Source of the DNA: Candidatus Omnitrophota bacterium
Lineage (GTDB): Bacteria > Omnitrophota > Gorgyraeia > JABMQH01
DNA: 46,691 nucleotides
Reading direction: 5' to 3'
NCBI GenBank assembly: GCA_013203355.1
Contig: JABMQH010000068.1
Coordinates: 1-46,691 of the forward strand
The position numbers were made by a program, and so were the translations under genes. Below, in pieces: positions 14,920 through 25,465 of the stretch. The number at the start of each line of letters is the position of its first letter. The first letter of the stretch is position 1. The notes beneath the pieces were generated by a model, which was not told the origin of the DNA, did no database searches, and saw only the letters and a list, made by a program, of their open reading frames with translations.

Positions 14920-15110
14920 AAAAAACCCCGCTGTGTCGTGTGAATCAAGTTAAAGCTTTGAACCTGTTATTTACAGGTGGGTACCTTCTTAAGCGGTTCA
15001 TGTTTACCAAAACTACCTAGGCCCTACAATCCGCGCTTAACGTTAGGTTCCCATTTAAAATTTATTGGCTCAAGCTTTGCCTTGTCAATCACGCACACAG
15101 CAGGGAACTT
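14920..15110 (-). ncRNA. ssrS: 6S RNA
   Basis: Closing stem CCCTGCTGTGTGCGTG / CACACGACACAGCGGGG followed by TTTTTT; internal TTGAGCCAATA similar to E. coli CTGAGCCGATA; own promoter TTGTTT-16-TATACT at 15157-15130. Confidence 0.82.
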
Positions 15111-15173: not shown

Positions 15174-17210
15174 TCATCTGATCACGGCTTTAAATTTTGC
15201 TACCAGTGCCTCTTTTATTTTATTATGCACCTTCTCTATTTGATTTTCTGTAAGTTGTTCGTCCTTAGCCAGATATTGAACGGAAAACGTAAGCCCCCTC
15301 TTCCCCGCCGGGATTTGTCCTCCGAAATATTCATCAAACAGCTCTACGCCTGTCAATAATTCCCCGCCTGATTCTTTAATAACATCGGCCAGTGCCATTG
15401 CGGGAACATCTTTTTCTATGATCAAAGAAATGTCTCTTGTTGCAGGAAGAAATTTCGCAAGTGTGGTAAATCTTTTTTCTACATTCACAAACTCAATCAG
15501 TTTTCCAAATTTTATCTCGCATAAGAAAACCTCTTTCTTGATGTCAAAGTTACTAAGCACGGATTTTTTAAGCTCGCCGATTACCCCCACTTCATTTTTA
15601 TTCACTGAAATCACAGCAGACCTCTCGGGATAAAAAATCTGGGGTGCGCTGTTTGAAAATTCGTAGTTGTTAATGCCTAAATTTTCCAGCAAAGTTTCAA
15701 CAACACCTTTTAGTTCAAAAAAATCCGTGTTTGTCTTTTGGCGCCAATCATTTTTTGCCCTGCCAGACATAAGAATACAAAGATTCTGCTCTTCTTGGCG
15801 CTTCCTGTCTTTTGAGATGGAATACACATTTGATAATTCAAAGATACCGAAGTCCTCTACCTTTCTATTGATGCTGAACTTGGCCGCATTCAGTATGCCA
15901 GGGATGAGGCTTGTGCGCATCACCTCTTGTTGATTGCTGGCAGGGTTTTTGATTGCTATAATGCTGTCTTCTAGAGCGGCGATCTTCTTTAAATCTTCTC
16001 TCCCGACGAGAGAATAGTTGACAACCTCTTCCATGCCTTCCGAAACCATAACCCTTCTTGCAAGTTCTGATATCTTTCTTTGAAATTCTTTTCTTTTCGA
16101 GTGGCCCACCATCATCGGAATCGTTGTAGGTATCTTATCATATCCATATATCCGGGTTATTTCTTCGATGAGGTCTTCTTCTCTCTTTAAATCTTTCCTG
16201 AACGATGGGGCCTCAACCCTTAATTTTTCCTGGGCGCCCGAAACCTTCAATCCCAAACTCTCCAAGATCCTTTTTGCCGCAATGGGTGTCAGCTCTAAAT
16301 TCAATATCTTGTTTGTCTTATTTAAAGACAGCTTAAGAATGTTTGTCTTGGCAGCCTTTATGCCAACATCTTTTACGATGCCGATTTTCCCTCCGCATAA
16401 CTCAACCATGAGTTTGGCCGCCCTATTGGAAGCAAGCGCGACGCCTTCCAGGTCTATGCCCCTCTCAAATCTATAACTTGAATCCGTTGTTAAAACCAGT
16501 TTCCTCTGAGTTCGCCTGACTGATATGGGATCAAAACAGGCGCTCTCGATCAAAACAGTTTTTGTGGACTCGGTGACTTCAGTATCAAGGCCGCCCATCA
16601 CCCCGGCAATTGCAATGGGCCGTTTTTCATCGGTGATGACAAGCATCTCATTGTCTAATTCCCTCTGGACGTTGTCAATTGTCAACATCCTCTCGCCTTT
16701 TTTGGCTTTTCTTACAACAATCTTCTGCCCGCTTAATTTATCATAATCGAAGGCGTGCAGGGGTTGGCCTGATTCCAAAAGACAAAAATTCGTTATATCC
16801 ACAACATTGTTTACCGGCCTTACGCCCACAGCCTCCAGCCTTGCTTTAAGCCAATCCGGGGAAGGCCCAACACGGACTCCGTCTACGATCCGTGCGGTAT
16901 AGCGCGGACACAGAAGTTTATCTTCTACCTCGACCTTAATTTGTTTGTCTCTGTTGGTTATTGGCAATAAGTTGGGGGTCTTTGGCACCTTCAGCTGCTT
17001 TCCTGTTACAGCCGATACCTCTCTCGCAACTCCGATAACACTTAACCAATCCGGCCTATTTGTCGTAACCTCTATCTCCAGTACGGAATCTTTCCCCTTC
17101 TCCTCTAAAGAGGTCACTTCCAAACCGGCCATGGTCAGCCATTGCGCCACCTGCTTAGCCGAATTCTTTACCCCTACGTACTCTTTTAGCCAATTATATG
17201 ATATTTTCAT
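15174..17210 (-). CDS. pheT: Phenylalanyl-tRNA synthetase beta subunit, lacking the tRNA-binding EMAP-like insertion
   Basis: MKISYNWLKEYVGV, VTTNRPDWLSVIGVAREV, B3/B4 and B5 domains, C-terminal FDX-ACB; 678 aa. Confidence 0.96.
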   Translation of the reverse strand: MKISYNWLKEYVGVKNSAKQVAQWLTMAGLEVTSLEEKGKDSVLEIEVTTNRPDWLSVIGVAREVSAVTGKQLKVPKTPNLLPITNRDKQIKVEVEDKLLCPRYTARIVDGVRVGPSPDWLKARLEAVGVRPVNNVVDITNFCLLESGQPLHAFDYDKLSGQKIVVRKAKKGERMLTIDNVQRELDNEMLVITDEKRPIAIAGVMGGLDTEVTESTKTVLIESACFDPISVRRTQRKLVLTTDSSYRFERGIDLEGVALASNRAAKLMVELCGGKIGIVKDVGIKAAKTNILKLSLNKTNKILNLELTPIAAKRILESLGLKVSGAQEKLRVEAPSFRKDLKREEDLIEEITRIYGYDKIPTTIPMMVGHSKRKEFQRKISELARRVMVSEGMEEVVNYSLVGREDLKKIAALEDSIIAIKNPASNQQEVMRTSLIPGILNAAKFSINRKVEDFGIFELSNVYSISKDRKRQEEQNLCILMSGRAKNDWRQKTNTDFFELKGVVETLLENLGINNYEFSNSAPQIFYPERSAVISVNKNEVGVIGELKKSVLSNFDIKKEVFLCEIKFGKLIEFVNVEKRFTTLAKFLPATRDISLIIEKDVPAMALADVIKESGGELLTGVELFDEYFGGQIPAGKRGLTFSVQYLAKDEQLTENQIEKVHNKIKEALVAKFKAVIR

Positions 17211-17229
17211 AGTTTTACTCGTGCGATAA

Positions 17230-17429
17230 GCAACGGGTGTCGTGTTTCTTTTTGGTATTGACAGGCCGATGGGGTCTTGAGCGTATAAGTTTTGCGCAGT
17301 TAATAGCTACCACCTAAATACCTCCGATACAGTAATCAGCCTATAATTATAAATCAGTACGACGACGCTGAAAGCAAAACTCGCGAAAGACCTCTCGGTC
17401 TAGCAATACCTGAGAGATAAACCCGTTGC
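17230..17429. ncRNA. Candidate structured RNA element between pheS and pheT (strand not resolved)
   Basis: Three strictly nested perfect complements: GCAACGGGT 17230-17238/ACCCGTTGC 17421-17429; GGTATTG 17254-17260/CAATACC 17404-17410; AGTTTTGC 17288-17295/GCAAAACT 17374-17381; inner TCAGC/GCTGA. Confidence 0.5.
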
Positions 17430-17437
17430 GTCATCTC

Positions 17438-18451
17438 TTAAAACTGCCGCAAAAATCTCAGATCATTTTCAAAAAACAACCTTATATCATCAACCCCAAA
17501 TTTAAGCATCGCTATCCTCTCAACACCCATGCCGAACGCAAATCCCGTCCATTTCTTGGGATCATACCCAACCATCTCGAATAGCCTGGGGTGTATCATG
17601 CCGGCACCCAATATCTCAAGCCAGCCCTTATGAGAGCAGACGCGGCAGCCTTTTCCCTTGCATATCATACAGGATATATCAACTTCGGCGGACGGTTCTG
17701 TAAAAGGAAAAAAGTGGGGCCTGAAACGCATCTTGATATCTTCGCCAAACATCTGTTTTGAAAACAGGGTTAAGATCCCTTTTAAATCAGAAAATTTTAT
17801 ATCCTTGTCCACCATAAAACCTTCTACCTGATGAAACATAAAAGAATGGCTTGCGTCAGTGGCATCCGGTCTAAAAACCTTCCCCGGCGCTATTACCTGC
17901 AGCGGCGGTTTTTCTTTTTCCATAACCCTGATCTGAACCGTCGAGGTCTGGCTTCTGAGTAAAGTATTATCATCTATATAAAAGGTATCAAAGGCATCCC
18001 TGGAAGGATGTTCTAAAGGAATATTTAATGCCTCAAAATTATAATGCGGGGTTTCTATCTCCGGGCCTTCGGCAATTTTGAAACCTAAATTCAAAAATAT
18101 CTCGTTTATCCTATTGGTGACCTGTGTAAGCGGGTGCAAATTACCCAGAGGCCTTTTTGTGCCCGGCATCGTGACATCTATTCTTTCACATTTCAGATCG
18201 TCCCTGGCTACACCTATCCTGCTCTTTGCCTCGCTCAAGGTTTCTGTGATCGAATTTTTTAAACTATTCAGCATGTTTCCGACCTTCGGCTTCTCCTCTG
18301 CTGAAATACTGCCCAATTCGGAAAAAAGCCTGTTAACCAAACCTTTTCTTCCCAAATATTTAACCCTCAGTTGTTCTATATGGTCGGGGGTTTCCGCTTG
18401 ATTGGCTTCTTTTATTGCCTGTTTCTGTATCTCTCTTATCTCTTCTTCCAT
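17438..18451 (-). CDS. pheS: Phenylalanyl-tRNA synthetase alpha subunit
   Basis: LHPLTQVTNRINEIFLNLGF, ATDASHSFMFHQVEGFMVD, GFAFGMGVERIAMLKFGVDDIRLFFENDLRFL. Confidence 0.97.
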   Translation of the reverse strand: MEEEIREIQKQAIKEANQAETPDHIEQLRVKYLGRKGLVNRLFSELGSISAEEKPKVGNMLNSLKNSITETLSEAKSRIGVARDDLKCERIDVTMPGTKRPLGNLHPLTQVTNRINEIFLNLGFKIAEGPEIETPHYNFEALNIPLEHPSRDAFDTFYIDDNTLLRSQTSTVQIRVMEKEKPPLQVIAPGKVFRPDATDASHSFMFHQVEGFMVDKDIKFSDLKGILTLFSKQMFGEDIKMRFRPHFFPFTEPSAEVDISCMICKGKGCRVCSHKGWLEILGAGMIHPRLFEMVGYDPKKWTGFAFGMGVERIAMLKFGVDDIRLFFENDLRFLRQF

Positions 18452-24923: not shown

Positions 24924-25000
24924 TGGTGGGCGGTACAGGGTTCGAACCTGTGACCTCCACGATGTCAACGTGGCGCGCTAACCAGCTGCGCCAACCGCCC
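24924..25000 (-). tRNA. tRNA-Val(GAC), CCA encoded
   Basis: GGGCGGT...ACCGCCCACCA acceptor; anticodon arm CCACG-TTGACAT-CGTGG; GGTTCGAACCC T arm. Confidence 0.95.
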
Positions 25001-25046
25001 TAAAAAACTGTCTCTCGCGCTGCGGGCACGACGTGGCTGGTTTTTT

Positions 25047-25077
25047 TTAAAGGGGAAACGGGGGGTTTCCCCTTTAA
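25047..25077. repeat. Perfect hairpin TTAAAGGGGAAAC-GGGGG-GTTTCCCCTTTAA
   Basis: 13-bp arms read directly. Confidence 0.8.
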
Positions 25078-25130
25078 TATATCCCCTTCCTTACCTGATT
25101 ATTAGCCACTGTCTTGTATCCGCAGACCAT

Positions 25131-25163
25131 CTTAAAGAAGGGAACGTAGTTCCCTTCTTTAAG
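25131..25163. repeat. Perfect hairpin CTTAAAGAAGGGAAC-GTA-GTTCCCTTCTTTAAG
   Basis: 15-bp arms, 3-nt loop, read directly. Confidence 0.85.
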
Positions 25164-25166
25164 TAA

Positions 25167-25282
25167 TCATCCTTCCTAAAAGGAGTGCTTCTTGTCATTG
25201 CGATATGAGACTAAAGCTGTAGACCGTGAAACAATCTCAAAAAATCATCCCTCCTAAGAGGAAGTCATCTTTCCTAAAAGAA
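25167..25282. repeat. Three copies of TCATCYYTCCTAARAGRA (25167-25184, 25245-25262, 25265-25282)
   Basis: Direct comparison; two further inverted copies at 46574-46591 and 46616-46633. Confidence 0.8.
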
Positions 25283-25291
25283 CTATCTTTG

Positions 25292-25375
25292 TGGGCAAGG
25301 AGGGAGTCGAACCCTCATGGTTTATACAACCAACGGATTTTAAGTCCGTCGTGTCTGCCATTCCACCACTCGCCC
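25292..25375 (-). tRNA. tRNA-Leu(TAA)
   Basis: GGGCGAG/CTTGCCC acceptor; anticodon arm ACGGA-CTTAAAA-TCCGT; long variable arm; GGTTCGACTCC. Confidence 0.93.
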
Positions 25376-25393
25376 TTCACGCTTACTGTGTTA

Positions 25394-25465
25394 AGGCGGC
25401 TTCCGGATTCGAACCGGAGTATAGGAGTTTTGCAGACTCCTGCCTTACCACTTGGCTAAGCCGCC
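25394..25465 (-). tRNA. tRNA-Cys(GCA)
   Basis: GGCGGCT/AGCCGCC acceptor; anticodon arm GGAGT-CTGCAAA-ACTCC; GGTTCGAATCC. Confidence 0.94.

Follow-up and report, generated by a model that had tools for sequence, protein, structure and literature searches.

The spacer between pheS and pheT in a 46,691-nt stretch of Candidatus Omnitrophota DNA (hereafter the window; contig C44 of a MAG of 206 contigs and 1.57 Mb) contains an imperfect palindrome at positions 17230-17429. With a probability of roughly 80%, this palindrome is a copy of a non-autonomous, ERIC/MITE-like dispersed intergenic repeat that occurs in two Omnitrophota families of one class, was inserted between pheS and pheT in this lineage and is mobilized in trans. 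Like other small dispersed palindromic intergenic repeats, its copies occupy unrelated intergenic sites and fold into a conserved stem-loop. Because copies are dispersed and the pheS-pheT spacers of relatives lack the element, it is not read as an RNA tied to pheST; instead, the odd gap in a core operon is accounted for as an insertion.

The element in the pheS-pheT spacer

Both genes are intact and lie on the minus strand, and their ORF ends bear out the separation of 227 bp (17211-17437) given in the original prediction, which had also held that pheS and pheT usually abut; in most class members examined, the two genes overlap or lie a few bases apart. Homologues of pheS were recovered from 14 of the 17 relatives searched, and the element was absent from every pheS-pheT junction read in these relatives, both in the family of the window (f1) and in other members of the class. 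Within the family, the spacer measures 114 bp in genome G002 and 57 bp in genome G001, the latter taking the pheT start at the conserved VKISYSWL position. The longer spacers (G001, G002, G194 and G276) hold other sequence, in part short inverted repeats. That of G001 (locus L057) carries an unrelated inverted repeat around ACCCAGCCCCTCTT, that of G276 (L064) carries unrelated repeats of the TAGCGTATAGCGG type, and that of G002 (L056) is among those with other, unrelated short repeats. The spacers of G001, G002 and other relatives are thus empty sites, with an exact insertion joint that is not alignable, and they indicate that, within the sampling, the insertion is specific to the lineage of the window.

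The three nested perfect complements of 9, 7 and 8 bp described in the original prediction are all exact, and every helix that it named lies within 17230-17429 (Table 1). The local hairpin that it proposed is present as sequence (AGACC-TCTC-GGTCT at 17388-17401, or AGACC-GAGA-GGTCT in the minus reading), but the minimum-energy fold places its bases within the long rod instead. The + strand of the element, assigned by the conserved motif CTTGAGCGTA, gives the spacer a fold of -76.6 kcal/mol (z -5.6), and the minus strand one of -68.8 kcal/mol (z -3.3); none of 200 dinucleotide shuffles was as stable in either case. No promoter or terminator-like site was seen at the window copy. A conserved short ORF (MV...AKLIRSRP) read from the minus strand in f1 copies was rejected as coding because the apical arm differs by one base in length (CCGTATAAATTTT versus CCGTTAAATTTT), which breaks the frame in f29 copies.

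Table 1. Coordinates of the element, its parts and neighboring genes in the window
Feature	Position	Strand	Details
6S RNA gene, full length	14921-15109	minus	Just downstream of pheT; Rfam RF00013, 103 bits
pheT	15174-17210	minus	678-aa ORF, N-terminus MKISYNWLKEY; flanks element downstream
Whole extent homologous to other genomic copies	17223-17434	+	92% over 212 bp vs C15, 90% vs C166
Outer arm left, 9 bp, GCAACGGGT	17230-17238	+	Pairs with 17421-17429
Core by covariance model R1, two families	17252-17411	+	R1 match 185 bits, scored by a model built from five sequences including this copy
Middle arm left, 7 bp, GGTATTG (helix 1 of R1)	17254-17260	+	Covarying; 92% of cells paired (91 copies)
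Apical arm left, 8 bp, AGTTTTGC (helix 4)	17288-17295	+	99.9% paired; sequence strongly conserved across copies
Apical loop region, including conserved stretch CTACCACCTAAA	17296-17373	+	From copy alignments
Apical arm right, 8 bp, GCAAAACT	17374-17381	+	Partner of 17288-17295; conserved across copies
Middle arm right, 7 bp, CAATACC	17404-17410	+	Partner of 17254-17260
Outer arm right, 9 bp, ACCCGTTGC	17421-17429	+	Pairs with 17230-17238
pheS	17438-18451	minus	337-aa ORF, C-terminus ...NDLRFLRQF*; flanks element upstream
Three-tRNA gene cluster	24927-25465	minus	

Dispersal within the genome and across the phylum

A DNA search of the window's genome (G000) identified clear copies on contigs C15 (92%), C166 (90%), C135 (95%), C16 (93%) and C9 (75%), those on C135 and C16 each being interrupted by a contig end. 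Since a polysaccharide-deacetylase gene ends right next to the copy on each of C16 and C166, these two contigs possibly represent one place assembled twice, and the count for this genome is therefore given as five to six. All of these copies are intergenic or at gene starts, and they lie among unrelated genes, with neighbors (named from translations) that include rodA/ftsW, lptD, a heptosyltransferase gene and the argS-mfd gap. Outer arms consisting of TTTGGGTTA and its complement are common to the copies on C15, C166 and C16 and absent from the window copy. On C166 (L003, 1-1590, minus strand), the lptD ORF runs in frame through one element arm, so that part of the start region of lptD may derive from the element. 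In addition, copies or half copies adjoin mfd-like genes in three genomes (L006/L039 on C9 of G000, L135 on C1 of G002 and L141 on C226 of G276), where the element precedes the gene in G000 and G002, with the orientation reversed between the two, and follows it in G276; such genes may be a preferred site.

The search with a covariance model (R1) built from five copies covered 384 genomes from the class and 384 from the phylum. Nearly all candidates were scored in six genomes and in family f29. Filtering was strict in the large scans, in which seven candidates from each genome were scored, and weak relatives elsewhere were possibly overlooked as a result. Matches were confined to two families, f1 (three of three genomes) and f29 (10 of 26 genomes), and they sit at varied intergenic places. 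Copy number per genome ranged from 1 to 51, the highest counts being 51 in G276, 13 in G249 and 11 in G285, and element size was about 160-260 bp with a core of 160-180 bp. The best copy pairs in G276, a 1.5-Mb genome, are 97-99% identical, indicating recent amplification. Orientation relative to genes is mixed in f29, where an antisense rule that is true of seven f1 copies fails. Exact-pattern scans recovered a single true relative, a contig of an Omnitrophota MAG that corresponds to that of G001 in both the position and the score of the match; two other hits (one bacterial and one viral contig) gave no match to R1, and the remaining hits are presumed to be due to chance. A phage or plasmid origin was also considered, and no match was found. 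The original prediction had noted that many dispersed copies would indicate a transposable repeat, and five to six copies in the window's genome and about 50 in G276 are what was found. For a phylum that has received little study, these results supply a defined repeat family together with a covariance model that can be used to find it.

Ends, head-to-head pairs and search for a mobilizing enzyme

In f29, the palindrome is usually bounded on both sides by AAATTT-type words. In the three high-copy f29 genomes, the 40 nt nearest the element contain approximately 0.5-1.2 such words on each flank compared to 0.04 per 40 nt, a more than tenfold enrichment over background, and no such boundary was seen at the window copy. 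Since the AAATTT boundary is itself palindromic, these end words are ambiguous as a target duplication. A second short motif, GCGGCAGGACCCGTCCTGTCG-like and often near AAATTT, recurs beside the elements of G276 (L084, L085, L090, L101 and L112), which suggests a wider mosaic of intergenic repeats.

All 11 neighboring pairs of copies in G276 and G285 are arranged head-to-head, with gaps of 46-218 bp. Several of these pairs share homology along about 490-530 bp, with identities of 86-91%, and the pairs are not all independent; it appears that a head-to-head pair has been duplicated as a unit of approximately 500 bp. Such composites give a tangible starting point in the search for the mobilizing enzyme. 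The interior unpaired half copies examined in G276 either have ordinary genes on both sides or are members of a pair, and none of them showed a transposase between element halves or an autonomous element. A Y1/RAYT partner was not supported, as PF01797 was not found in G000 or G002, both of which have the element, and is present in many genomes without it. The arms of the element are inverted repeats. Its interior is better conserved than its ends, unlike a textbook MITE, and this, like the failure of these searches to find a mobilizing enzyme, counts against the preferred reading.

Covariation, strand and alternative explanations

Across 91 aligned matches, 93.0% of cells form standard pairs compared to 67.8% in shuffles, and the covariation score is 0.469 compared to 0.124 (0 of 500 shuffles were as high on either measure). 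These figures are biased upward, since two rows repeat palindromes already in the alignment, matched on the opposite strand, and since the rows were aligned to the model; even so, the contrast with shuffled alignments is very large. Double changes occur at 41 of 43 pairs, and all covariation measures collapse when the pairing partners are slid. The nested helices of the original description are therefore indeed conserved, and the covariation that it had proposed as a check is present. However, covariation in a palindromic DNA repeat is not by itself proof of an RNA, and the element serves as a caution, as very strong covariation of the kind commonly taken as proof of a functional RNA is found here in dispersed DNA. 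Sequence conservation is concentrated in the apical helix (AATTTTGC/GCAAAATT) and its flanking internal loops; the basal helices are variable and show covariation. Mismatch types in the basal helices are symmetric (23 G-U versus 26 C-A cells), as expected of a palindrome maintained as DNA. Within the upper helix, the first eight pairs of helix 3 show G-U in excess of C-A by 78 to 2, or by 34 to 2 when one fixed U-G pair is set aside, a hint of a strand-specific fold that comes from related, not independent, copies. Of 89 copies, 39 fold better on the + strand, and the mean difference is near zero; therefore, the folding advantage of the + strand in the window copy is not general.

Template switching is reported to create and repair hairpin stems and to fix their pairing via multi-base events (PMC8794818), and it is a sufficient source of the basal covariation. 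It is possible, if doubtful, that the covariation is purely mutational, with template switching perfecting the arms of a hairpin that has no selected function. The symmetric basal mismatches, the reported multi-base events and, in the alignment, a run of matched changes in the C9 copy (AUU/AAU to GGG/CCC) are all consistent with this explanation, but loops and apical sequence conserved across families need either selection or recent common ancestry. This explanation concerns only the persistence of the hairpin and is compatible with a mobile repeat. A less probable explanation is that the copies are functional structured RNAs, either sRNA genes or a cis-acting mRNA module, under RNA-level selection and dispersed as a by-product. 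The pairing and covariation across the 91 copies, the internal loops and apical stem shared by two families and the G-U excess of helix 3 would fit such selection; however, folding energy shows no consistent strand preference, G-U and C-A cells are balanced in the basal helices, gene orientation is mixed in f29, and presence is patchy, with copy number varying from 1 to about 50. The lack of any promoter or terminator-like site in the window copy argues in the same direction, as do Rfam scans of the window, the element and nine homologous loci, in which no match to the element reached the gathering threshold or any useful score; the original prediction had likewise been unable to match the interval to 6S, SRP, T-box, tmRNA or riboswitches. 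Similarly unlikely is a strand-specific family of mobile structured RNAs, in which the loops and apical stem would bind a host or mobilizing protein, as a transcript or a single-stranded hairpin, and the head-to-head pairs would be the moving unit. If true, this would represent a hairpin-guided mobility system new for Omnitrophota, in which none has been described.

The least credible of the alternatives is a pheST-specific cis-regulatory RNA controlling the PheS:PheT ratio. The element does sit between the two cistrons and folds stably on the transcribed strand (z -3.3), but the same element lies in the argS-mfd gap, by rodA, by lptD and elsewhere, and the spacers of family relatives lack it, which refutes such a role as a conserved feature. 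Of the three suggestions made in the original prediction, the MITE thus fits the dispersed copies, while neither the cis-regulatory RNA nor the independent sRNA is upheld, the latter having no promoter or terminator-like site, no consistent folding strand and no orientation rule. An integron attC site was also rejected, as the ends are unlike the attC core consensus and the length and gene context are wrong.

For the preferred reading, a mobile intergenic palindrome, copies elsewhere in the genome and relatives without the element at this site indicate that it entered the pheS-pheT spacer in the lineage of this genome. Spread between genes, either singly or as head-to-head pairs of approximately 500 bp, would be driven by an enzyme acting in trans. 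The hairpin may be kept through recognition of its extruded form during mobilization, through template-switch repair during replication, or both. When pheST is transcribed, the element would form a long stem in the mRNA and, by analogy with ERIC and NEMIS, may be cleaved or may alter the stability of the message; such an effect would probably be a by-effect of insertion as opposed to its purpose.

Comparison with known systems

ERIC/IRU elements are dispersed, intergenic, imperfect palindromes that are transcribed with neighboring genes, have no known transposase and are reported to exert orientation-dependent effects on the stability of upstream transcripts (PMC2229807). The Omnitrophota element is likewise intergenic, imperfectly palindromic and dispersed. 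However, ERIC is a 127-bp enterobacterial element with 7-bp terminal repeats, while the element described here has a core of 160-180 bp, is bounded by AAATTT-type words in one of its families and has another outer arm in the second; length and host therefore place it outside ERIC, a separation made by description as opposed to alignment. As in Correia/NEMIS and other bacterial MITEs, the element is small, non-autonomous, hairpin-forming and dispersed between genes, and NEMIS hairpins in mRNA have been proposed as RNase III substrates (PMC2229807). Those elements are characterized by terminal inverted repeats and by target duplications with TA ends, whereas the present element is conserved in its interior and has variable, covarying outer arms.

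The frequent arrangement of palindromes in inverted pairs resembles REP/BIME/REPIN (RAYT) systems. REPs measure 20-40 bp (PMC3733652); the core described here exceeds that length several times over, and the distribution of Y1 transposases does not follow that of the element, PF01797 not having been found in G000 or G002. Length and partner enzyme thus place the element outside the REP/REPIN-RAYT group. A long rod with an internal open region also recalls 6S and other rod-like Rfam RNAs, but the element has no useful Rfam score and the genome has its own 6S gene elsewhere (14921-15109, minus strand). A literature search, which scarcely covered subscription journals, found no report tying Omnitrophota or Omnitrophica to such repeats. 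The best reading is therefore that the element represents a previously unlisted repeat family, a new family of a known kind, the ERIC/MITE-like small mobile palindromes.
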